A DNA stretch of 30,710 nucleotides from a virus: positions 1-30,710 of the IMG/VR virus record IMGVR_UViG_3300025133_000429; one strand, 5' to 3'. The notes beneath the pieces were generated by a model. It was not told the DNA's origin, searched no databases, and worked only from the letters and a program-made list of their open reading frames with translations. This document shows, one piece after another, positions 4,562 to 23,273 of the stretch. Positions within the stretch are counted from its first letter, which is position 1, and every line of letters begins with the position of its first letter. The translations under genes and the position numbers were made by a program.

Positions 4562-5677
4562 TTATATGTTTGCGTTAGGCCAAAAAAACTTTGTTGTAAG
4601 GGGAAGAAAGGTGTTTATGGACCCACCCCCAGGAGTCCTAACGGTGATATTCATATCAACGCCACAATCAATACTTGATATATACTCTCTTAATTTTTGT
4701 GTATCCATAACTCTCATATTATTAACGAAGTTATTTATGAAATTTCTATCTCTATTTCCATTAACCTCAACCAATTGATTTTGTAGGATAAGTGTTTGCT
4801 CTTGATTAATTAAATTATCCTTATCTGCCAACACTATTTTCTCAAGCCTATCAATATCACCTACTGTAAGTAATTTAAACCTTAAATTTGCTTTTGACAA
4901 TGGTAATATAAAACTAAATAACCCATCCGAATCTGGTTCAATATTAAGCTTTATTGTGTTTAATTTACTTAAATCAATTTCAGTCTCAAATGGTTCATCG
5001 GTACTTTCATCATATATCTGAACTGGGTACATTTCACCATAACCAGTGGCTCTAAGCCAAATCATAATTGCATTCCTATCTCCAGGTAGCAAATCCTTAT
5101 ATCTTATATTTGATTCAAGTAGTTTTCTATTTATGAGAATCTCCAAAAAGTCACCACTTTCGACTAAGTTTGGTGATGTAAGTATATTCTCATCAGCTGT
5201 GGTTAAATACGCAACCTTAACGGTACTTTTTCTTCCTGGATATAATTTACCTTCAGAAGGTAATGGCAACACATCAAATGGTTGATTCATTTGTGGTTGA
5301 CTAATATATTCTATTGTTTGGGTATTGTTATTTTGGAAACCATCATCTCCCCCACCATAATTATTATTTGTTGGGTAAATTGGTGGTGTATGATTATTAT
5401 CCCAAGCATGAATTTGCTTTTCTTTCATCTTTTCTTCTCTGGTTTTTTCAGTTTGATTGTAAATTTCTTGATTTTTATTCAATTGTTCATTTCTCAATTT
5501 CAATTGTTCTTCAGTCCTTTTTTTCATTTCAGCGGCTGCTTTGGCTTCAGATTCTGAAATAGGTTGATTTGTGATATTATTCTCCTCCTTAAACTGATTA
5601 TTAATTTGTTCACCAGTTTCATTGGCTTGATTAATTTGTTCCTGTGTTGGGAACACATTTGGCTTTTTATTACTCAT
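4562..5677 (-). CDS. gp26-like baseplate hub / tail assembly chaperone
   Basis: A 371-residue protein. Residues 1-110 are a Q/N/E-rich, low-complexity helical tail. The conserved part starts near residue 135 with LPLPSEGKLYPG, followed by TTADENILTSPNLVESGD and a run ending in LPLTTKFFWPNANI. The PSxGxxYP and EDxLTSPNL-type motifs match the T4 gp26 family (Pfam T4_baseplate), which acts in tail or baseplate assembly. The extended low-complexity N-terminus is unusual compared with the roughly 208-residue T4 protein. The last six codons follow a T7 run where a +1 or -2 shift would enter the downstream chaperone frame. The leader contains a TTG-N19-TATATTTG promoter and a partial copy of the leader RNA motif found before the sheath gene. 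Confidence 0.75.
   Translation of the reverse strand: MSNKKPNVFPTQEQINQANETGEQINNQFKEENNITNQPISESEAKAAAEMKKRTEEQLKLRNEQLNKNQEIYNQTEKTREEKMKEKQIHAWDNNHTPPIYPTNNNYGGGDDGFQNNNTQTIEYISQPQMNQPFDVLPLPSEGKLYPGRKSTVKVAYLTTADENILTSPNLVESGDFLEILINRKLLESNIRYKDLLPGDRNAIMIWLRATGYGEMYPVQIYDESTDEPFETEIDLSKLNTIKLNIEPDSDGLFSFILPLSKANLRFKLLTVGDIDRLEKIVLADKDNLINQEQTLILQNQLVEVNGNRDRNFINNFVNNMRVMDTQKLREYISSIDCGVDMNITVRTPGGGSINTFLPLTTKFFWPNANI
4582..4588 (-). other. T7 slippery run for programmed frameshift
   Basis: Coding sense AAG TTT TTT TGG. The zero frame ends six codons later at 4562-4564. Skipping one T (+1) or slipping back two (-2) continues into the open downstream frame. The overlap of the two open frames spans only 4562-4614, and this homopolymer lies inside it. 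A -1 shift would stop at once (TTG GCC TAA), so +1 or -2 is required; -2 is known from phage Mu. Confidence 0.6.
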
Positions 5678-5694
5678 AATTATTTTATTTAGTT

Positions 5695-5728
5695 GTTCAG
5701 TCCTTCTTATATTATATAATTGGTCATT
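5695..5728 (-). ncRNA. Partial leader RNA motif before gp26-like gene
   Basis: In the coding sense: CCAA, a TTATA-TAA-TATAA hairpin, then GAAGGACTGAAC, ending 17 bases before the start codon. This is the 3' half (P2 hairpin and CTGAAC) of the motif found complete at 9002-9094 and upstream of the sheath gene. No GTTCAG hexaloop is present upstream, so the pseudoknot partner is missing. An alternative hairpin TTGGT/ACCAA can form instead. Confidence 0.55.
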
Positions 5729-5735
5729 TAGTTAC

Positions 5736-5765
5736 CAAATATAATATAAACAATAAATATCACAA
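5736..5765 (-). promoter_or_regulatory. Host-like promoter of the gp26-like gene
   Basis: In the coding sense TTG (5765-5763), a 19-base spacer and TATATTTG (5743-5736). This matches the Bacteroidota housekeeping promoter (TTG or TTTG, then TAnnTTTG). The spacer also contains an ATATTTATT box (5753-5760), so two promoter types may overlap here. Confidence 0.5.
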
Positions 5766-6289: not shown

Positions 6290-7726
6290 TTAATTTATAA
6301 TTTTGGTACCCTTAAGTTTATCCCTAAGATATTTTATTTCATTCTTATGAACGTTTGTGTCTTTTAATCCTAACCATTGTATATTTGGTAATGCAATTAA
6401 ATTATCCATTCCACTACGCCCAACAGGACAACTAGTTAAACTTAAATGTTCAAGATTTTTAAGTGTTTTTAATGTGTGTGGTATATCTTCAATAGAACAA
6501 TTATTACCATTACCTAACTCTAATCTTTTTAACTTAGGTAACTCTTCAATAGAATACATTTGTTGTAAATTATCAACACGTAAATATTCAAGATTTTTAA
6601 GACCCATAATTGTGTTAGGTAAATTTATTCTTTCATTTTTAGATTGTATGGTTAATTTAACAAGGCTAGTTAATTTATTAATACTTTTAGGTATATTAAC
6701 ACTAATTTTTGAAATTATATCAAGTTCAGTTAAATTATCCACGTATGCTAATAATTCTAAATTTAGTCCCAAATTTTCTGAATCATCAAGTTTAATACGT
6801 ACACCACTGCCTCCCCTATTCGCCTTAAATAATTCATTTATAAAATCTTTTATATTTACTTTACCAGAAACAACTTTATTTATAAAATCTTTATTAAGGT
6901 TACCTTTATTATTTGAGTTAATATCAACCCCTCGCCCTGTAAACTTCCAACCAAGATTTTCTAACAGTTTTTTCTTCTCTTCTTCTATATTTTTTTCTTC
7001 TCTTTCTCCTTTCTCTCTATTACTTTTCTCTTCCTTCTCTTTCTTCTCCTCTTTATCTTGCCACTTTTTATTCTCCTCTCGTTCCTTCCCTAACGCCCTA
7101 TTTCTTTCATCATCATCATACTTTTCTTCCCATTTTTTCATGCTTAATCTTTTTGTGATATCCACATACTCACTTGTTTCTCTTTTGTTAGGTTTCCACG
7201 AATTACTTGACTTCCAACCTATAATGTCAAACATTTTTTTTAAATTAATTAAGTCTGAATATTTTTCTGGTATCATATTCATAAGCCCAACGTCATCGTA
7301 TATATATAATCTTGATTTAGAAATGACAAAATCTAGTAGACCTTCATCTAAATCATCTGGTGCATTACTAAATTTAACCTCTAATCGTGCACTATTTACC
7401 CCAGAGAAATCAGATGGGCGAGAAACGATAATCTTAGTTGTAGTATCTTCATTTCTAGTATTTGATACTAAATTTATTGGTTCAATTGTATCTTCACCCA
7501 ATTCAGAACTATGTTTCCTAATTCTTTCAGCAAATTTAGGGTATTTATCACCAAAAGACCTAGCTAATTTTTCCCAAGTAATTTTACTTATTTCATTTAA
7601 TTCTTGTTCATCAATTCTTTTAATCCTATTAAAAACATTTCTAAAATTATCAACAATTAAATTTTCCTTATTTTTAAGTATTTGTTTTTTTTCAGATTCA
7701 GTTAGTATTCTATTCTTCTTTCTCAT
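6290..7726 (-). CDS. Leucine-rich repeat protein with LTES N-terminus
   Basis: A 478-residue protein in three parts. The N-terminus (RILTESEKKQIL, later RIDEQELNEIS) resembles the candidate processed leaders of other proteins here. Around residues 200-255 lies a highly charged E/K/R coiled-coil stretch. Residues about 320-465 form leucine-rich repeats (LTELDII, LVKLTI, LEYLRVDNL, LKRLELGN, LEHLSL, IQWLGLKD). LRR domains mediate protein-protein binding; the partner is unknown. LRR proteins are uncommon in phages. Its start overlaps the stop of the upstream GIY-YIG gene by 4 bases, and it precedes the 134-aa gene by one base, so all three form one transcription unit. Confidence 0.7.
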   Translation of the reverse strand: MRKKNRILTESEKKQILKNKENLIVDNFRNVFNRIKRIDEQELNEISKITWEKLARSFGDKYPKFAERIRKHSSELGEDTIEPINLVSNTRNEDTTTKIIVSRPSDFSGVNSARLEVKFSNAPDDLDEGLLDFVISKSRLYIYDDVGLMNMIPEKYSDLINLKKMFDIIGWKSSNSWKPNKRETSEYVDITKRLSMKKWEEKYDDDERNRALGKEREENKKWQDKEEKKEKEEKSNREKGEREEKNIEEEKKKLLENLGWKFTGRGVDINSNNKGNLNKDFINKVVSGKVNIKDFINELFKANRGGSGVRIKLDDSENLGLNLELLAYVDNLTELDIISKISVNIPKSINKLTSLVKLTIQSKNERINLPNTIMGLKNLEYLRVDNLQQMYSIEELPKLKRLELGNGNNCSIEDIPHTLKTLKNLEHLSLTSCPVGRSGMDNLIALPNIQWLGLKDTNVHKNEIKYLRDKLKGTKIIN

Positions 7727-8040
7727 ATTAATATATTATCCTTACCGTAATTATAATCACTTATCGCTTTTTCAAAACCTCTAACAGTTTTTTCAAAGTT
7801 TAAAATCTCTTCCTCATTTAAATTAAACCATTCACCCCTTATCCTTTTATATGAAAAAAAATTATGTAATGACGTTTCTACCTTGCCATAATTTTTAACC
7901 TCATAATATGAAATGATTTTCAATTCACCAGAATTACCAGTCTGCAATTGCTTAACCCTATCTGAAACAGATTTTTTTGTCATACCAATCTTATATTCAA
8001 AATTAGTATTCATTATTAAATAAATATGACCAACACCCAT
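7723..8040 (-). CDS. T5orf172-type GIY-YIG domain protein
   Basis: A 105-residue protein. HIYLIMN at 5-11 and YKIGMTKKSVSDRVKQLQTG at about 16-35 correspond to the GIY-YIG-like core of the T5orf172/MUG113 family, followed by VETSLHNFF and RGEWFNL, which are also family hallmarks. The family is related to GIY-YIG nucleases. Here the protein is the bare domain without a DNA-binding extension, so it could be a small nuclease or a derived DNA-binding protein. It is the first gene of a minus-strand unit and has an ATATTTATT box 38 bases upstream. Confidence 0.75.
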   Translation of the reverse strand: MGVGHIYLIMNTNFEYKIGMTKKSVSDRVKQLQTGNSGELKIISYYEVKNYGKVETSLHNFFSYKRIRGEWFNLNEEEILNFEKTVRGFEKAISDYNYGKDNILI

Positions 8041-8992: not shown

Positions 8993-9000
8993 TATATTTG
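8993..9000 (+). promoter_or_regulatory. TATATTTG box before the non-coding RNA
   Basis: TATATTTG matches the TAnnTTTG element of Bacteroidota promoters, immediately upstream of the structured region at 9002-9094. No matching TTG element lies at the usual spacing. Aligned with the sheath leader, this box falls where that leader has its ATATTTATT box, so both may mark the promoter. Confidence 0.4.
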
Positions 9001-9001
9001 T

Positions 9002-9094
9002 TTATTGGTGAAATTTTGGGTTGGTTCAGCAACCCTAAGTTGGGGAAGTTTTTCACTCAATAACCAATTATATCTAATATAATGTGGACTGAAC
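9002..9094 (+). ncRNA. Pseudoknot RNA motif, free-standing copy
   Basis: Outer stem P0: 9002-9013 pairs with 9051-9063 with one bulged T at 9057. Inside it, P1 is GGGTTG (9018-9023) with CAACCC (9030-9035), closing a six-base loop GTTCAG (9024-9029). Hairpin P2 is TTATAT-CTA-ATATAA (9068-9082). CTGAAC (9089-9094) is the exact complement of the P1 loop, giving a pseudoknot. The sheath leader has the same layout with compensatory changes. No plus-strand gene follows, so this copy is either an independent RNA or the leader of a lost gene. CCC at 9033-9035 could alternatively pair with GGGG at 9042-9045. Confidence 0.65.
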
Positions 9095-9153
9095 GAAGGC
9101 AGATGCTCTATATATAAAATAAAAACACCCATAGGTAGCGATACTTACGAGTG

Positions 9154-9197
9154 CTTAAATAGCCATAGCTATAACGGCCCTAACCGTGTATTTTAAG
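9154..9197 (+). ncRNA. Three-way-junction RNA element
   Basis: CTTAA (9154-9158) pairs with TTAAG (9193-9197). Within it are hairpin ATAGC-CATA-GCTAT (9159-9172) and hairpin ACGG-CCCTAA-CCGT (9074+100 to 9187). The strand is not fixed by the sequence, but it lies 60 bases downstream of the pseudoknot motif and could belong to the same transcript. The segment has clearly more G and C than its surroundings and no reading frame. No known RNA family was recognised. Confidence 0.45.
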
Positions 9198-9218
9198 GTA
9201 TAAAACCAAACAAAAGTC

Positions 9219-10731: not shown

Positions 10732-12345
10732 ATGGATTTTTATGAATATTTTATAAATGACAATAAATCTGGTTATAAAACTAGACGAGATTGGTTAATT
10801 AAAAATAATAAACAATTATATGGTAATATATTGTCGCATTGCTCTGGAGAGTTAAAAAACATAACCCTTAAGGAACAAATATGGTGTTTTATTAATGGTG
10901 TTAAAAATATACCAAGATGTGAATGTGGGAATAAATTAAAATTTAAGAAATCCCTTAGAGATGGTTATGGTAAATATTGTTCAATAAAATGTACTAATAA
11001 AAGCAAAGGCCATAAATTAAAGGTAAAAAAAACAAATGAAAAGAAATATGGTGGGGTCTCACCATCTCATTCAGATGATATAAAGAATAAGATAAAAAAA
11101 ACTAACCTAAAGAAATATGGTGTTGATAATATATTTAAGGATGTTGAATATATAAAGAAAAAAACACTTGAAAAGCATGGTGTTGAGCATATATCACAAT
11201 TAATGTCAACAAAAATAAATATAGCTGAAACCAATTTAAAAAAGTATGGCGTTACGACACCACTAAAAAATAAAGATATAAGGCAATGTGGTTTTTATAA
11301 AAAGAAAATAAACTTTAAAGAAAAATATAAGACTCTTGAAATATTAAATGTTGTTGGTGATAATATATATATAAAATGTCCATCATGTTGTAATAATTAT
11401 TCAATAAACAGAAGTGTCTTATACCATAGATATTTATTAACCAGTAACCCATGCACCATTTGCCACCCCAAAAAATCTGGTGTTTCAATCGGAGAAAAAG
11501 AATTAAGAGATTTTATTATTTCTCTTGATATTCCTTTTGAAGAAAACTATAGAGAATTAATTAAACCGCTGGAGGTGGATATATATGTACCATCAAAAAA
11601 TATTGCAATTGAATATAATGGTCTTTATTGGCATTCTGAATCATACGTTGATAAAGATTATCATTTAAATAAAACCGAATTATGCAATGATAAGGGTGTT
11701 AAGTTAATTCACATATTTGAAGATGAATGGATTAATAAGCAAGATATTGTTAAATCAAGGCTTAAAAATTTATTTGGTTTAACAAGGGGACGAATATATG
11801 CACGTAAATGTGAGGTTAAAGAAGTACCAACAAAAGATAAAACAAAATTCCTTAATGAAAATCATATTCAAGGTGCCGTTGGTTCAAAATATAATCTTGG
11901 TCTTTATTATGAAGATGAGTTGGTTAGCATTATGACTTTTGGGGCTTATAGAAAGGTTCTTGGGTTAAATAGTAAAAAAGATAACTATGAACTAATAAGG
12001 TTTTGTAATAAAATTGATTTAACGGTGATTGGGGGGGCTTCTAAGCTATTTAAAAATTTCATTAGGGGGTACGACCCAAAAGAAATAATTAGCTACGCTG
12101 ACAGAAGATGGTCAACTGGAAACCTATATGATGTGTTGGGGTTTAAATTTAGTCATAATTCAAAACCAAATTATTTTTATATTGTGAATGGTCTAAGACA
12201 TCATAGATTTAAATATAGGAAGGATTTATTAATTAAGGATGGGTTTAATAAAGAACTCACTGAACGTGAAATAATGCTTAAAAGGAAGATATATAGGATA
12301 TATGATTGTGGTACAATAACATATAAATTTAAAGTTTTTTCATAA
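10732..12345 (+). CDS. Free-standing homing endonuclease, EDxHD/VSR-like
   Basis: A 537-residue protein. A zinc-binding motif CxC...CSIKC lies at 63-87. Four repeats of the form TNLKKYGVxxxFK (about 100-190) resemble NUMOD-type DNA-binding modules. A second Cys cluster (CPSCC...CTICHP) is at about 225-255. The nuclease region follows with GEKELRDFIISL, then LEVDIYVPSKNIAIEYNGLY, WHSE and VKLIHIFEDEW, which fits the EDxHD homing endonucleases related to VSR (for example I-Bth0305I). The C-terminal part (SIMTFG, YADRRWSTG) belongs to the same phage family. These enzymes cut cognate DNA and spread their gene by recombination. It lies divergent from the tail tube gene and opposite to the flanking structural genes, with its own host-like promoter. 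Confidence 0.85.
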   Translation: MDFYEYFINDNKSGYKTRRDWLIKNNKQLYGNILSHCSGELKNITLKEQIWCFINGVKNIPRCECGNKLKFKKSLRDGYGKYCSIKCTNKSKGHKLKVKKTNEKKYGGVSPSHSDDIKNKIKKTNLKKYGVDNIFKDVEYIKKKTLEKHGVEHISQLMSTKINIAETNLKKYGVTTPLKNKDIRQCGFYKKKINFKEKYKTLEILNVVGDNIYIKCPSCCNNYSINRSVLYHRYLLTSNPCTICHPKKSGVSIGEKELRDFIISLDIPFEENYRELIKPLEVDIYVPSKNIAIEYNGLYWHSESYVDKDYHLNKTELCNDKGVKLIHIFEDEWINKQDIVKSRLKNLFGLTRGRIYARKCEVKEVPTKDKTKFLNENHIQGAVGSKYNLGLYYEDELVSIMTFGAYRKVLGLNSKKDNYELIRFCNKIDLTVIGGASKLFKNFIRGYDPKEIISYADRRWSTGNLYDVLGFKFSHNSKPNYFYIVNGLRHHRFKYRKDLLIKDGFNKELTEREIMLKRKIYRIYDCGTITYKFKVFS

Positions 12346-14032: not shown

Positions 14033-16891
14033 TTATATATCATCAAAACTAGCACCAGTGTTCATAATTACGAACTCAAGTGATATAAACTCTAAAGCAC
14101 GGGTTGGCTTTAAGAAGATTTTACCACACAATTCATTTCTGTCAATAGATTCTGGGGTGTTGTCAAGAACCACTCTAAAATCAGTAAGACCTCTTTCAGA
14201 CCTAATGTTATCTAAGATTGGATTAACAAGACCTAAGAATTGGTTTCTTACGATATCATCATTTTGTTCAAATAATAGTCTAATTGAGACAGCTGAAATA
14301 AGTTTTCTTGCTTGCAATAGAAGTCTTCTAACATTAATTCTATTAAGGGCGGTATCTTTAATTTGTAGTGTTTTATTACCCCAAATCTTAATACCCTCAG
14401 AAGCAAATGTTGCAATTGGATTAACCCTACCTTCATAGAGTGTGTCTCTTTCAGCAAGTGTTAGTTTCTTCCTAGCTTTAATTGCATTAACATCACCTCT
14501 TTGTATACCAGCAACGGCAAACCAAGGGAATGAAATATTATCTGTTAATGCTATGTTTCTAACAACATCTCTTGTTGGTGGAACATATATAAAAACATTA
14601 TTTTCGGCATCATTTATTTGAATCCAAGGCCAGTATGTGGCTGTATAGTTACTATCAAATTGGCTATCAAGTGTATCAATAACATCATCTGGTAGCAATA
14701 CATCTCCAGAAGCATCAGTATCTGGTGTTGTCACAATATAAAATGAATCTGCTCTATCTTCTTCAACCATTTCAATACTTTCTTCAACAAGATTTGTATT
14801 TTCAAATGTGTCAATACCTGGAGTTGCAAATACATTAACATTTACAGCTTCTGGATTTTGGAACGTCCAAATAGCTTCCAAGTAAGCATAATAGTCAGAA
14901 GTTATACCATTGTCACCATTAGTTAATGCTCTACTAGCAAAGGCACCCGTACCACCACCAGATGTTGGTCCCCCCTTAACACCTCTGGTACCATTAATTG
15001 TATATGGGTCTGTATTGGTTCTTCTAGTTCTATATATATCCCATCCATCATATCCACCATATGGTGCAAATGTGAATTTTCTTGCATATATTTTTTCATA
15101 AGCAGTACCTTCAACACCATCTTCTGTTCTGAATTGAGCATTACCAGTGTCAAAAAGATAAACTGGACTATATGTGTTACCACTCGCATCAATAACAATT
15201 TCAACGTTGTCAATCGTTGCCCCAGTAGCGGCAATATCCATATGGAAACCCTTTGTAAGACCTGTCCACAGTGTTAAATCACTATCTGGTTGTCCTTTAT
15301 AGTCAAAGAAATCCTGGTCAATACCTTTTGTTTCAGAAAGACCTAAATAGAATTTTCTTTTATTTTCAAATGCACCATAAGTTTGTTTATATTCAATACT
15401 TGGTGACAATACTGTTGTATTTGAGTTCGCTTGGTAGTCTCTTATAGGAAACCCTAAGAATCCAGCTGGGAAAGCATCTGAAGTATCAGACTCTTCTTCC
15501 ATTTCAACAAGTATATAATTAGACCTTGATGCAAAATTACCATCAAGCGTACCAACCCTCTTAGCCACATAATTATTTGATGTTGGGTCCATGCTACACC
15601 TTGTAAATCTTTCTAACGCAATTGGTTTAGCATCTGTATCCGCATAACTTCTTATTTCAATATCAAACTCTTTTAAATCTAGTCTTATATTTTTAATAGA
15701 AATCTTAAATTGACTATTGGCGGCATTACCATCAGATATTGTCCAAAGTCTAAATAGTCTAAGAAGATTTGTACCTCTAAGTTCAGAAACAACCCAAGGG
15801 GTTACTGCTGGTTGATATTCTTGTTTGTATTCGTCAAAAGAATCCTCATAATCAATTAATGATGATATATTGATACCTCTAACTTTTTCATCATCAACAA
15901 AATCACCAAACATTCCACCAAATAATTCTTCAACAAATAGTGCCGTTTTACCATCTTTAGCACCTACACCAAGCACCCTAGTTATATAATTTTTCTTTGT
16001 AGTATCAAATGATAATGAATAACTAAATGCACCCGAAACTGTGGACGTTCCAGTTATACCAAAATCACCTTTTGGTGCCGTTTCTGCTTCGGTTATAGCT
16101 GAGTTAAAACCAATATCCGTTGACCCAGTAACTTCAAAATTAAGTGTTTCATCTGAATCATATTTACCTCTACTTCTAAGTAATGCCACTAATTTATTTT
16201 CAACTGTTGAATATCCAGTACCAGAATAGTGTACTGTTGCACCAGTTGTTATACCAGTTATTGTTGCACCTACACCTGGGTAATTTGACTCTGTTATTGT
16301 TATATCAAATGTTGCACCACTAAATGTGTCGCCTACTTTTTGGAATATAGCACCATATGACTTAGATGTTCCAGTATCAGAAACACCCAAAAATGCCAAT
16401 TGATTATCCAATAGACTATTATCCCATAATGATTGTATCAATGCATCATCTGACACGACTGTTGTAACGGTTCCAGCTGTTGTTGCTGTATATGTTAGTA
16501 ACGTACCACCAGTAAGTCCACCACCTGTTGTTCCTGTAGTTGTAACATCAAGTGCTGCATCAAGTGTAATACCCCAAGATAACCCAGCATCATAACCAGA
16601 AAACCCAAGAATTCTGGTTACAAATAATTGATTTGATTCAGAAAGATAAGATTTTGCTATATATGGTAATTCATATTTTGGTGCACCATTATCTTTTATT
16701 TTTGTTGCATTAAGTCCTCCGAAAAACGAAGTAAACTCATCATAATTCCCAATAAAAATTGGTTGGAAAGCTGGTCCTTGTGTTGTTTCACCCACTAAAC
16801 CAAGTGTTGTAACACCAACTTGTCGTGTTACAAATGTTAGGTCTCTTTCTGATGTGTATATCCCTGGGCTCACAAATACTTTATCTGCCAT
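14033..16891 (-). CDS. Contractile tail sheath protein, gp18-like
   Basis: A 952-residue protein. The N-terminus FVSPGIYTSERDLTFVTRQV followed by TTLGLVGETTQGPAFQPIFI is diagnostic of T4-type sheath proteins. The C-terminal core (SEGIKIWGNKTLQ, INVRRLLLQARKLI, SIRLLFEQND, RSERGLTDFRVVLDN) is the conserved sheath domain that interlocks subunits. It is much longer than T4 gp18 (659). The extra length lies in a threonine/glycine-rich insertion around residues 105-290, probably an exposed beta domain, and in the middle region. The subunits contract to drive the tube through the envelope. The leader contains a complete copy of the pseudoknot RNA motif. Confidence 0.95.
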   Translation of the reverse strand: MADKVFVSPGIYTSERDLTFVTRQVGVTTLGLVGETTQGPAFQPIFIGNYDEFTSFFGGLNATKIKDNGAPKYELPYIAKSYLSESNQLFVTRILGFSGYDAGLSWGITLDAALDVTTTGTTGGGLTGGTLLTYTATTAGTVTTVVSDDALIQSLWDNSLLDNQLAFLGVSDTGTSKSYGAIFQKVGDTFSGATFDITITESNYPGVGATITGITTGATVHYSGTGYSTVENKLVALLRSRGKYDSDETLNFEVTGSTDIGFNSAITEAETAPKGDFGITGTSTVSGAFSYSLSFDTTKKNYITRVLGVGAKDGKTALFVEELFGGMFGDFVDDEKVRGINISSLIDYEDSFDEYKQEYQPAVTPWVVSELRGTNLLRLFRLWTISDGNAANSQFKISIKNIRLDLKEFDIEIRSYADTDAKPIALERFTRCSMDPTSNNYVAKRVGTLDGNFASRSNYILVEMEEESDTSDAFPAGFLGFPIRDYQANSNTTVLSPSIEYKQTYGAFENKRKFYLGLSETKGIDQDFFDYKGQPDSDLTLWTGLTKGFHMDIAATGATIDNVEIVIDASGNTYSPVYLFDTGNAQFRTEDGVEGTAYEKIYARKFTFAPYGGYDGWDIYRTRRTNTDPYTINGTRGVKGGPTSGGGTGAFASRALTNGDNGITSDYYAYLEAIWTFQNPEAVNVNVFATPGIDTFENTNLVEESIEMVEEDRADSFYIVTTPDTDASGDVLLPDDVIDTLDSQFDSNYTATYWPWIQINDAENNVFIYVPPTRDVVRNIALTDNISFPWFAVAGIQRGDVNAIKARKKLTLAERDTLYEGRVNPIATFASEGIKIWGNKTLQIKDTALNRINVRRLLLQARKLISAVSIRLLFEQNDDIVRNQFLGLVNPILDNIRSERGLTDFRVVLDNTPESIDRNELCGKIFLKPTRALEFISLEFVIMNTGASFDDI

Positions 16892-16931
16892 TGTTTATTT
16901 TTTTTAATTTGTTTATTATTTCAATATGTTT

Positions 16932-17011
16932 GTTCAGTCCTCTTATATATTAGTATATAATTGGTTGTTGAATGGATTAACCCCTCTAGGGCCACTGAAC
17001 CGACCCATCAA
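16932..17011 (-). ncRNA. Pseudoknot leader RNA of the tail sheath gene
   Basis: In the coding sense: outer stem TTGAT/ATTCAA with one bulged T; P1 GGGTCG (17006-17001) with TGGCCC (16994-16989), using two G-U pairs; the P1 loop GTTCAG (17000-16995); P2 TTATATA-CTAA-TATATAA (16960-16943); then GGACTGAAC, whose CTGAAC (16937-16932) complements the P1 loop. The spacing from loop to CTGAAC is 57 bases, against 59 in the free-standing copy. CCC at 16991-16989 or nearby can alternatively pair with GGGG at 16984-16981. The motif ends 40 bases before the start codon. Confidence 0.65.
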
Positions 17012-17013
17012 TA

Positions 17014-17021
17014 ATAAATAT
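17014..17021 (-). promoter_or_regulatory. ATATTTATT box before the sheath leader RNA
   Basis: CATATTTATTATTG in the coding sense, directly before the leader RNA. Against the free-standing copy it aligns with TATATTTGTTTATTG, which suggests that this box occupies the promoter -7 position. Confidence 0.5.
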
Positions 17022-17266: not shown

Positions 17267-18181
17267 TCACCAACCCACTAATGCATTTGTGGCAGACTTA
17301 AAACCAAAATTATATAATTTTCTAAGCTTTGTTGGATTAACACCATATAATTCTTTAATTACATATGGTATGAAAATTTGTTTACTTTTAATCTTATGGG
17401 TCTTTTTATTATTAATTATTTCTATTAAATAATTTTCTTCTATTTCATCTTTTTTACTAATTTCTATTGCTGTTATGTCAGTGAGTCTAGTAAAAACAGA
17501 TACAATATTACAATCACACCAATTATTATCTAACACATGTTCATATTTTTTGGGTCTTGCAAAAATTGAAATGTTTTCTGACACATTTGGTATATTTTCT
17601 AACATCCAATGTGATAGTATGTGATTTCTAACACCCCCATCATATAATATCATATCATTAAAATGAACACCTTCTACCGCAAGTGGTATACTTGCTGATG
17701 CATTAATTAACTTTAAAAAATCATCATATGTGTATTTTTCATCTTTTATGTTAACTATAAACCTACTACTACTTTTAAAATCAACAGAACCAATCCAAAC
17801 ATTTGGAAAATCACCATTTTGAAATCTTTTATACTCTTCTTCAGATACAATTTTATTTATGGTTGATAATAAATTATTTTGTGTCCCAAATGACGAATGT
17901 CCAAATATTGCTCTAAGCCTAGCACCTAAACTTAATTTATTTTTTCCGTTTATTGGTTTTTTATCAAATATATTATCAATTGTGAATGTTTGTGTAAACT
18001 CCCTTACTATATCCCATTTACGCAAAGCTATTGGTATGGCTAATATAGCACCAGAACTTATACCACTTATATCTGTTGGTCTATACCCTAAAATATTAAA
18101 AATGTAATCACAAGCACCAGCAAGACCAGATATTCTTGTACCACCTCCAGATAAATTAAGTATTTTCCTTATACCACCCAC
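17267..18181 (-). CDS. Patatin-like phospholipase
   Basis: A 304-residue protein. The oxyanion-hole motif GGGTR is at residues 12-16. The nucleophile elbow GISSG at 40-44 makes Ser42 the nucleophile, and DGG at 181-183 supplies Asp181; together they form the Ser-Asp dyad of patatin-like lipases. Members hydrolyse acyl ester bonds of phospholipids. No signal peptide is seen, so it would act in the cytoplasm or as a virion part. Its place between the fibre genes and the sheath gene on the same strand suggests late expression; it might damage membranes during lysis or entry. It follows the 98-aa gene by 15 bases. Confidence 0.8.
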   Translation of the reverse strand: MGGIRKILNLSGGGTRISGLAGACDYIFNILGYRPTDISGISSGAILAIPIALRKWDIVREFTQTFTIDNIFDKKPINGKNKLSLGARLRAIFGHSSFGTQNNLLSTINKIVSEEEYKRFQNGDFPNVWIGSVDFKSSSRFIVNIKDEKYTYDDFLKLINASASIPLAVEGVHFNDMILYDGGVRNHILSHWMLENIPNVSENISIFARPKKYEHVLDNNWCDCNIVSVFTRLTDITAIEISKKDEIEENYLIEIINNKKTHKIKSKQIFIPYVIKELYGVNPTKLRKLYNFGFKSATNALVGW

Positions 18182-20777: not shown

Positions 20778-21503
20778 TTATAAATTATATCTTGCTTTTG
20801 ATGCATTGTAATTTTGTGATACTTCTGATGCTGATAATTCTCTGTTATATATCATAAGTTGTGAAACTCTTCCTTGTTGGTAATGTTCATACGAACTACC
20901 CTTAAATCGTCCTATTGAAGTAAGACCATCCGAAATAAGTGGTATTGTTTTACCTGTTTCACTGTGCCATAAACTACCATCATGATATATTCTTTGATTC
21001 CCCGTTACTGAATCTTTTGTGAATGCCCAATGATGCCATCCATTACATTCTGCTGTTGTAGCTAATTTTGATATTCTATCAAAACCAGTTAAATAAGGTA
21101 TAGTTGCATCTCCCGCATCAAAATAAACTGTTGAATTATCCCAAGGTATTAGTAATGCTATACATCGCTGATAGACTCCACCAGCACCTGTATTGGTAGT
21201 ACCAATAACAAATACACCTTGTTTTTTATCCACCCTTTCACCGAAATTCCAAATACTAACCGTAATTTGTGTACCACTGAATGAAAATTCATCCATTTCT
21301 ATATAATCATCAAGACCATCAAATACCCAACTACCATTATTATCTGTATCATAAGTTACACCATTTTCTAATGTACCTGTAATTTGTGTTATCGACAAAT
21401 CATTACATACAGTATCACCACTAATATAAGATTGTGGGTTTGCACCATCATAATACAAAATCAAACCATCAGTAACTATTTTACTACTCACTACTCCACT
21501 CAT
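20778..21503 (-). CDS. LamG-like adhesin, copy 3
   Basis: A 241-residue protein. The opening KIVTDGLILYYDGANPQSYI and GSWVFDGLDDYIEM are shared with two upstream genes. The pattern continues with ITVSIWNF, WHHWAFTKDSVTGNQRIYHD, and the terminal ASEVSQNYNASKARY. This is the LamG/concanavalin fold often found in Bacteroidota phage receptor-binding or decoration proteins. The N-terminal DNA is about 90% identical to that of copy 2 while the C-terminal part differs, which suggests diversification of the binding face. It starts 2 bases after the 86-aa gene's stop. Confidence 0.75.
   Translation of the reverse strand: MSGVVSSKIVTDGLILYYDGANPQSYISGDTVCNDLSITQITGTLENGVTYDTDNNGSWVFDGLDDYIEMDEFSFSGTQITVSIWNFGERVDKKQGVFVIGTTNTGAGGVYQRCIALLIPWDNSTVYFDAGDATIPYLTGFDRISKLATTAECNGWHHWAFTKDSVTGNQRIYHDGSLWHSETGKTIPLISDGLTSIGRFKGSSYEHYQQGRVSQLMIYNRELSASEVSQNYNASKARYNL
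21301..21484 (-). repeat. LamG N-terminal duplication, copy A
   Basis: About 184 bases that match 22331-22514 at roughly 90% identity by eye. Both encode the N-terminal strand region of LamG-like adhesins. Confidence 0.85.
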
Positions 21504-21505
21504 AA

Positions 21506-21766
21506 TTAAGATATTATATCATCTGATTGCCATTCTGGGGTTGACATCAAGGCAATCATTTCATTATAATTATAAGGCCCCTCACCTGTTGTAAGTGTTA
21601 AAACTGAAGGTGGGGTACCCCCCTCCCATTTAACAAAAGTTTTTGTTAAATCAACCGACTTTCTAACAGTATCCATTGAAGTTTCTAAGACCTCATTAAA
21701 ATTTATTTTTTCCGATTCAGATATATTAAATATCATGAATGTTCTATGTTCATAAATGTGTGACAT
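21506..21766 (-). CDS. Small fibre-associated protein, copy 1
   Basis: An 86-residue protein, paralogous to the 88-aa protein at 20475-20741. The core is HRTFMIFNISESEKINFNEV, a middle with SVDLTKTFVKWEGG, and GPYNYNEMIALMSTPEW. It is a compact alpha/beta protein of unknown fold and has no signal peptide. It lies between two LamG-like genes, 2 bases before copy 3, so translational coupling is likely. It may be a fibre assembly factor or tip component. Confidence 0.6.
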   Translation of the reverse strand: MSHIYEHRTFMIFNISESEKINFNEVLETSMDTVRKSVDLTKTFVKWEGGTPPSVLTLTTGEGPYNYNEMIALMSTPEWQSDDIIS

Positions 21767-21782
21767 AATTTTTTATTTATTA

Positions 21783-21796
21783 ATAAATATAAATAT
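21783..21796 (-). promoter_or_regulatory. Doubled ATATTTAT box before the 86-aa gene
   Basis: Two overlapping ATATTTAT sequences in the coding sense (21783-21790 and 21789-21796), 17 bases before the start at 21766. Confidence 0.35.
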
Positions 21797-21798
21797 TT

Positions 21799-22536
21799 TT
21801 ATTTAAATCTAGATTTCATTGCATTGTAATTTTGTAATACTTCTGATACTGATAGTTCTTTGTTGTACACCTTAACGATTGGTATTTTACCATTCCAAAC
21901 CCTAAGTGGCGTTACTACACCACCAATTTTAAAAGTTTCTGTTGAGTTTATGGTGGCACTTAGGGTATTGGAACGTATGTATAGTGATTCGGCAACCCCA
22001 TTTACATATAAGGTGGCACCAGATGCATCACTATTACCATTATATGTTACTGTGAGATTGTACCACATTGACGTAGATAGTGCTGTACTACCCCACACAA
22101 TAATACCATTCAATCCACCGTTATTTTGTAAATCAAACCTAAGATATGGGTTACCACCAGTGAGAGTGGGGTCTTCATAGACACTATAATGATAACCCCG
22201 TGCTGGTGGATTTGAATATTTAGATAAAATGGGTGTTAATACACTACTTAAAAATACATCACAATATACCCAAGTAGAAAAACTAAACACATCTGTACGC
22301 TCTAAATCAAGTGTAGTGTCACTAAAATCTATATAATCATCAAGACCATCAAATACCCAACTACCATTATTATCTGTATCATAAGTCACACCACTTTCTA
22401 ATGTGCCAATAGATTGTGTTATTGATAAATCATTACATATAGTATCATCACTAATATAAGATTGTGGGTTTGCACCATCACAATACAAAATCAACCCATC
22501 AGTAACTATTTTACCACCACCTTCTAGTGTACTCAT
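21799..22536 (-). CDS. LamG-like adhesin, copy 2
   Basis: A 245-residue protein. It opens with KIVTDGLILYCDGANPQSYI and GSWVFDGLDDYIDF, followed by VFSFSTWVYCDVF, MWYNLTVTYNGNSDASGATL and YVNGVAESLY, the typical LamG strand and loop pattern. It ends with LSVSEVLQNYNAMKSRF, shared with the other copies. It overlaps the upstream LamG gene by 4 bases (ATGA), so translation is coupled. A carbohydrate-binding role at the tail tip is likely. Confidence 0.75.
   Translation of the reverse strand: MSTLEGGGKIVTDGLILYCDGANPQSYISDDTICNDLSITQSIGTLESGVTYDTDNNGSWVFDGLDDYIDFSDTTLDLERTDVFSFSTWVYCDVFLSSVLTPILSKYSNPPARGYHYSVYEDPTLTGGNPYLRFDLQNNGGLNGIIVWGSTALSTSMWYNLTVTYNGNSDASGATLYVNGVAESLYIRSNTLSATINSTETFKIGGVVTPLRVWNGKIPIVKVYNKELSVSEVLQNYNAMKSRFK
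22331..22514 (-). repeat. LamG N-terminal duplication, copy B
   Basis: The partner of 21301-21484. Differences are scattered, about 14 by eye, and many are synonymous. Confidence 0.85.
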
Positions 22537-23273
22537 AATCCAAATCTATATTTTAATGCGTTATAATTTTGTAATATTTCTGATGTCGATAGTTCTTTAT
22601 TATACACTTGAAATGTTGCCACATTACCAGGACTATAGTAGCTACCAATTTTGTTGATATATGTGTCCCAAGCAGTATTATGCATAGCAACGTATGTCGC
22701 ATACGCTGCTGTAGTTATACTCTGCACCACACCGTTTATATAAATTTTTAATCCATTATATGCTAAAGCACCACCACGACCATCATACGTCCCAACTATG
22801 TTTAACCATTGACCTTCTAAGGATGTTAAGGTTCCAGTGTATATGTAATTATATGCACCGTATGAACCAACGGACTCATCATATAACACCAAATAAAGTT
22901 TGGAATCAGTCGCACAATAAAATTGCCACTCACCAGCTTTATAATTGGGGTAATCAAATTTGTTTGCTATGGTAAATGAGTCTGCCTGGTCTATAACAAC
23001 CCATGCTGACATACTAAAAGGTGAATCACTGCTACCATCACCAAAACTAAATATATCACCATGACCTAAGTTTATATAATCATTTGTACCATCAAATTCA
23101 AAATAACCTTTATTATTTGAACTAAACCCTACACCATTTTCAACTGACCCCGTAACACCACCCATTAGACTATTTACATATGTGCCACTACCTGGGTATG
23201 ACTTTTTGTTGGCCGCATCTAAATAAAATATCAAACCATCTGTTACTATTTTTGGTGAAAATCTAAATGACAT
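22533..23273 (-). CDS. LamG-like adhesin, copy 1
   Basis: A 246-residue protein. It starts with KIVTDGLIFYLDAANKKSYP and has GYFEFDGTNDYINLG, FSMSAWVVIDQ, GQWLNIVGTYDGRGG, IYINGVVQ and ends LSTSEILQNYNALKYRFGL. The fold is LamG/concanavalin-like. It is the most divergent of the three copies and lies directly downstream of the 768-aa fibre gene (2-base gap), so it may form part of the same fibre. Confidence 0.75.
   Translation of the reverse strand: MSFRFSPKIVTDGLIFYLDAANKKSYPGSGTYVNSLMGGVTGSVENGVGFSSNNKGYFEFDGTNDYINLGHGDIFSFGDGSSDSPFSMSAWVVIDQADSFTIANKFDYPNYKAGEWQFYCATDSKLYLVLYDESVGSYGAYNYIYTGTLTSLEGQWLNIVGTYDGRGGALAYNGLKIYINGVVQSITTAAYATYVAMHNTAWDTYINKIGSYYSPGNVATFQVYNKELSTSEILQNYNALKYRFGL

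Follow-up and report, generated by a model that had tools for sequence, protein, structure and literature searches.

Copies of a structured RNA in the window

The window, i.e. the whole stretch of 30,710 nucleotides analysed here, is a 30.7-kb fragment which, like the viral metagenome contigs compared with it, comes from an uncultivated virus. It harbours two full copies and one partial copy of a structured RNA motif. The first copy (c1; 9012..9094, +) starts with the hairpin P1, GGGTTG-GTTCAG-CAACCC (9018..9035, +; loop at 9024-9029), followed by a middle hairpin, TTGGGGAA..TTCACTCAA (9040..9060, +), a long stem P3, CC-AA-TTATAT..ATATAA-GG (9064..9087, +; helices 4 and 5 of the pair count), and the terminal sequence CTGAAC (9089..9094, +), the pairing partner of the P1 loop. 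The second copy (c2; 16932..17012, -; P1 loop at 16995-17000, CTGAAC at 16932-16937) lies in the leader of the tail sheath gene (14033..16891, -), which owes its name to the first-pass annotation and has relatives encoded in 377 viral-contig stretches. The partial copy (c3; 5695..5757, -; also given as 5732-5695), which had been overlooked before, consists of P3 and CTGAAC without P1 and belongs to the leader that precedes a T4-type baseplate gene (4562..5677, -; PF12322, E=5.6e-6). The window has two matches to the pattern GTTCAG-N(40-70)-CTGAAC (9024-9094, + and 17000-16932, -), compared to 0.02 expected in shuffled sequences.

Just 5' of c1 a pattern match identifies TATATTTG (8993..9000, +), which we take to resemble the -7 promoter consensus of Bacteroidetes. 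In front of c2 the late-promoter-like element TATTTAT (17014..17020, -) is present in the aligned sheath leaders; relatives keep it in both their sheath and their baseplate leaders, and c3 is also located behind such an element. TATTTAT or TAnnTTTG is found within about 45 nt of roughly nine to ten of 11 single copies, while about 12% of AT-rich positions have such an element nearby. As far as can be read from the sequence, this placement behind promoter-like elements suggests that the copies are transcribed.

Eleven full copies from the window phage and from two sister-phage contigs were combined in an alignment of 87 columns (A1). Standard pairs make up 97.3% of the pair cells, compared to 94.3% in shuffles and 36-45% in controls with a slid structure. 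Changes on both sides were found at four pairs, two in P1 (columns 11-22 and 12-21), one in the middle hairpin and one in the CC/GG flank. The pseudoknot that GTTCAG forms with CTGAAC (6 bp) does not vary at all (6/6 pairs in 11/11 copies). All cells of the middle hairpin (columns 30-50) are paired, with GC replaced by AU on both sides in three of the 11 copies, and 89% of the P3 cells are paired, with one copy broken. The conserved RNA structure proposed by the first-pass annotation is therefore borne out by covarying stems and the invariant pseudoknot across the 11 full copies. Its distances from loop to CTGAAC (59 nt in c1, 57 nt in c2), the P1 changes which preserve pairing (GGGTTG/CAACCC versus GGGTCG/TGGCCC), the different lengths of the stem here called P3 (TTATAT/ATATAA versus TTATATA/TATATAA) and the CCAA and GG flanks of this stem are all correct. 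An outer stem with a bulged T found no support, as nothing 5' of about position 9013 is common to the other copies, and the middle hairpin with its GC-to-AU covariation had been missed.

The covariance model R1, trained only on window-type copies, gives 100 bits for c1, 76 bits for c2 and 36 bits (E=8e-6) for c3, and identifies more copies in the sister contigs A and B and in a third contig. The covariance-model search that had been proposed thus recovered homologues with covarying pairs in the sister-phage contigs, while 78 other loci with a sheath gene, 0.93 Mb in all, gave no match. Copies without P1 (c3, L218 and L208:2170) may be dead. Rfam, when searched with the motif, gave no family at gathering score and chance matches only (E up to 5). 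Folding of single sequences misses the pseudoknot and shows a modest gain over shuffles (z -1.3 and -2.1).

Sister contigs, spacers and a Cas12f nuclease

A broad scan of viral contigs for GGTTCAG-N-GGACTGAAC gave mostly chance matches, yet together with subsequent BLAST comparisons it led to two syntenic sister contigs rich in copies: A (3300027996_002167; stretches L178, L207 and L208) and B (3300010151_000064; L209 and L210). Their motif copies are 91-94% identical to those of the window. In both contigs CTGAAC is the 3' end of a short repeat, TATATAAGAAGGACTGAAC, which alternates with variable sequences, so that short arrays with spacers of 11-26 nt are formed. Such arrays are found in L178 and L210, and the window contains single copies only. 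The putative guide of c1 (GAAGGCAGATGCTCTATATA; 9095..9114, +; a length of about 20 nt is assumed) occupies the position equivalent to the L178 and L210 spacers.

In contig A an ORF of 435 amino acids (L178:3132-4439, -) has one motif copy immediately downstream and another immediately upstream. Contig B ends inside the counterpart of this ORF, and again the gene start lies behind a copy. The copy before the gene shares scaffold and downstream flank between A and B, and its last spacer is wholly different. The protein matches the Pfam profile Cas12f1-like_TNB (9e-23) and also OrfB_IS605. Compared with the sequences of solved structures it is most similar to Al3Cas12f (8e-71), CnCas12f1 (8hr5; 6e-56) and AsCas12f (1e-49), with TnpB (9e-8) far behind, and the best matches of its AlphaFold model (mean pLDDT 73) are Cas12f structures. 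The RuvC triad (D228, E325, D403) is intact and invariant in alignments A2 and A3. A cognate Cas12f effector is thus encoded in the sister contigs (L178 and L210/B). A first reading of the L178 locus as a TnpB omega-RNA was dropped after these comparisons of sequence and fold. Searching bacterial genomes for close relatives of this cas12f gave a single distant match only.

The cas12f gene is absent from the window fragment and also from L004 and L005. L004, which shares 99.9% identity with the window along 7 kb, comes from the same metagenome as contig B. The proposed link between cas12f and the window phage is drawn from the similarity of the motif and from this common metagenome.

A profile scan identified 14 viral contigs encoding Cas12f. 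The four best matches of R1 in Cas12f loci (L254, L257, L258, L260) lie within about 700 nt of cas12f, and the independent Cas12f-bearing viral contigs matched by R1 carry ordinary CRISPR arrays. In L254 the hairpin reads GGGCTG-GTTGGA-CAGCC, and TATATCCAA(C) forms the end of the neighbouring CRISPR repeats; TCCAAC at this end is the complement of the loop GTTGGA, so the pairing is kept with changed letters. As a side observation, two cas12f genes on Lysinibacillus plasmids (L251, L252) are preceded by duplicated units of 59-61 nt (~636-1146 and 785-1140, respectively), mixed with interspersed repeats. By position these units are tracrRNA-like, so that systems of this Cas12f group may often have several copies of the tracrRNA.

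Because the motif flanks cas12f in the sister contigs, carries spacers and matches the tracrRNA-crRNA layout of type V-F, we hold with high confidence that it is a Cas12f guide-RNA scaffold. CTGAAC ends a spacer-bearing repeat and the R1 matches adjoin independent cas12f genes; therefore, as judged by comparison of sequences, the P1 loop is the short anti-repeat of a type V-F tracrRNA, and P3 is the long repeat/anti-repeat. In type V-F a pseudoknot of 5-7 bp connects a tracrRNA hairpin loop with the 3' end of the repeat (PMC11246509), which agrees with the 6 bp of the window-type motif and with the compensated GTTGGA/TCCAAC pairing in L254. The sequence 3' of CTGAAC would then be the guide. 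Taken as a whole, the reading as a natural single-guide RNA of a phage Cas12f, about 83 nt long plus guide, is in our view likely. Of the first-pass interpretation the conserved structure, the covarying homologues and a copy capable of acting in trans remain; its role as a decoy for a leader-binding factor is not the best reading of a motif with these neighbours, spacers and layout.

The resemblance to the guide RNAs of AsCas12f1 and Al3Cas12f comprises the 5' hairpin loop pairing with the repeat 3' end beside the guide, the long repeat/anti-repeat stem, a nuclease of 420-510 amino acids and, as a candidate feature on the phage side, a T-rich 5' PAM. We believe that the first hairpin of the AsCas12f sgRNA also has a GTTCAG loop, which serves as a lead only; a text search of open PMC papers did not find the letters of this sgRNA. 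Known Cas12f guide RNAs consist of two RNAs and are larger, with a 138-nt tracrRNA and a 49-nt crRNA for AsCas12f1 (PMC10821844) and gRNAs of 129-156 nt in the MG119 family including Al3Cas12f (PMC13186708). In the phage motif, by contrast, tracrRNA and repeat are fused to about 83 nt and dispersed over the genome. Alicyclobacillus phage MMB025 and L254 have a related nuclease, and L254 the same loop-to-repeat pseudoknot; however, both carry a regular array beside cas12f, and dispersed single-guide copies were not seen there.

Insertions, empty sites and the possible use of the copies

The first-pass annotation treated the motif as part of the sheath leader, but c2 is an insertion: it is missing from 75 other sheath leaders and present only in near-identical contigs. 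An ancestral leader motif was ruled out in the same way, since related loci totalling 0.93 Mb do not have the motif. In L006, with a sheath 93% identical, the empty leader reads GATTA/AAACATATTAAAATAATAAAC (slash, insertion point), and the window element ends exactly before AAACATATTGAAATAATAAAC. The putative c2 guide (AAACATATTGAAATAATAAA; 16912..16931, -) is native leader sequence; compared with the empty L006 leader it has two mismatches in 24, with ATTA in front. Two copies of contig B are missing in A, where the empty sites read TATATTT/ATGAAAGGG.. and GTTTTTTT/AATAAC... A further comparison (A32800 versus B4768) was dropped, because these loci are paralogous and no true empty site exists.

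A spacer of contig B (L210) matches contig A (L178) in 24/24 positions, with CTTA in front; it is the same locus in inverted arrangement, so rearrangement could have produced the match. A 31-nt spacer in B (L210 8668-8760) is an inverted near-copy of sequence at the same locus in A (L178 8971-9110), ending in TATATAAGAA, which resembles the repeat, and this may show how spacers arise. Spacer matches to related viruses amount to the 24/24 match in the sister phage and the near match in L006; the others have none. In 18-mer scans of viral contigs the c1 guide had no match apart from the near-identical L005, and the array spacers TTATCAATGGTGGTTTTG and AAACCACCATCAAGAGTA gave chance matches only; for all three the identity stops 0-2 nt past the searched word, as expected by chance.

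The sequences before the four compared sites are ATTA, CTTA, ATTT and TTTT. All four have TT at positions -3 and -2 (chance about 9e-4), and two of the four empty-site comparisons are imperfect close to the seed (mismatches or an indel). AsCas12f1 has the PAM NTTR (PMC10821844), and a PAM deduced from these four sites would be in line with it.

We infer a mechanism in which the copies would be transcribed, loaded into Cas12f and used for cleavage next to a PAM. The 5' part (P1 with its GTTCAG loop, the middle hairpin and the first half of P3) would be a reduced tracrRNA, the 3' part (the second half of P3 and GGACTGAAC) a reduced CRISPR repeat, and the following ~20 nt the guide. Every copy would be taken up by a single Cas12f encoded elsewhere in the genome, whether from mini-arrays with one to three spacers near cas12f or from single copies directly behind phage promoters, for which native phage sequence would serve as guide. 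The insertion would separate the PAM from the guide sequence, and therefore the carrier would be spared. Since a relative with the empty site would stay cuttable, the likeliest use would be to cut sister phages that compete with the carrier; the element might afterwards be copied into the broken site. To us the chances that attack between phages or homing is the purpose are about even, and homing by repair of the Cas12f cut is possible. A stronger version, in which the ~83-nt elements insert before conserved phage sequence, use this sequence as guide, cut rivals with an empty site by means of a shared Cas12f and are copied by repair, is speculative and in our view rather unlikely. It would amount to a gene drive of phages that needs neither an intron nor a homing-endonuclease gene at the individual sites.

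The nearest functional precedent is found in virus-borne mini-CRISPR arrays, which act from one virus on a related one (PMC6858448, PMC11656645). They likewise have 1-3 spacers and often lack adjacent cas genes, and they carry a spacer against a close relative, to which the 24/24 match would correspond; but known mini-arrays use host Cas and host repeats (PMC6858448), whereas here the nuclease is encoded by the sister phages and each unit has its own tracrRNA.

That the copies act as guides and not as decoys seems probable to us. The decoy alternative corresponds to an RNA anti-CRISPR such as Racr, in which the copies would fill a V-F Cas12f of the host or of a rival with useless guides and so block immunity. 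Solitary repeat units behind phage promoters are known inhibitors, including ones of type V-A (PMC10651486); the window copies are also solitary and behind promoter-like elements, and the scans of viral contigs gave no target for the c1 guide. However, the motif holds a tracrRNA in addition to the repeat, and the complete tracrRNA part and the pseudoknot are kept, which exceeds the needs of a repeat mimic. Moreover, the sister phages own a cas12f with intact triad and the same scaffold with spacers, so that blocking would be self-defeating. We therefore regard decoys as improbable. Even less probable is a control of leaders, where Cas12f would bind the scaffolds and process or repress the sheath and baseplate mRNAs. 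Although c2, c3 and several sister copies are located in gene leaders, neither c1 nor the arrays belong to the leader of a gene on the same strand, and 75 relatives have orthologous leaders free of the insertions, so the genes can do without them. Very improbable, finally, are omega-RNA remnants of an IS605/TnpB-type mobile element spread by transposition: the right edges are exact (CTGAAC, then native sequence) behind T-rich sites and Cas12f and TnpB are related, but the compared insertions have no common left end or flank, no TnpA was seen beside cas12f in L178, the effector is Cas12f by sequence and fold, and tandem spacers are unexpected for transposon ends.

If the guide reading is true, these phages would have made a CRISPR nuclease into a weapon, or a homing system, that is spread over the genome and aimed at close relatives, and the insertion itself would protect its carrier. 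The natural fused scaffold of ~83 nt, smaller than the published Cas12f scaffolds cited above, would be of practical interest together with its 435-aa nuclease, and offers a view on how separate tracrRNA and repeat may merge or split.

Neighbouring genes and a second structured RNA

Several other genes of the window were noted. A gene with DUF7487 and Mom-like domains (10732-12345, +) is possibly involved in DNA modification, to go by its domains. A small T5orf172/MUG113 protein is encoded at 7723-8040 (-), and a patatin-like phospholipase gene (17267-18181, -) is located upstream of the sheath gene. Three paralogous genes whose products start with KIVTDGLI.. lie in a row (20778-23273, -), which also includes two short related genes, located between and next to the three.

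Beside the c1 guide lies a second conserved structured RNA (9106-9218, either strand), consisting of the hairpin CCACTTAG..GGTAGCGATAC..CTAAGTGG followed by ATAGCCGTAGCTATAACGGTCCTAA. Relatives were found in L011 (13364-13442), L058 (5858-5935), L024 (8199-8286), L026 (5633-5712), L025 (5326-5405), L027 (15326-15399) and L022 (15783-15846), and five pairs show changes on both sides. A 22-nt piece of the L024 relative matches E. coli 23S rRNA in 21/22 positions, in what we take to be the helix 69 region. The hairpin loop holds GGTAGCGA, which in 23S rRNA comes after CCTAA, so the order is permuted. The second RNA is possibly a mimic of 23S rRNA or a captured I-CeuI-like site. A weak match to it (74.6% over ~70 nt, E=0.1) is also present in a huge phage of 735 kb (LR756501.1:92810-92880; L270).
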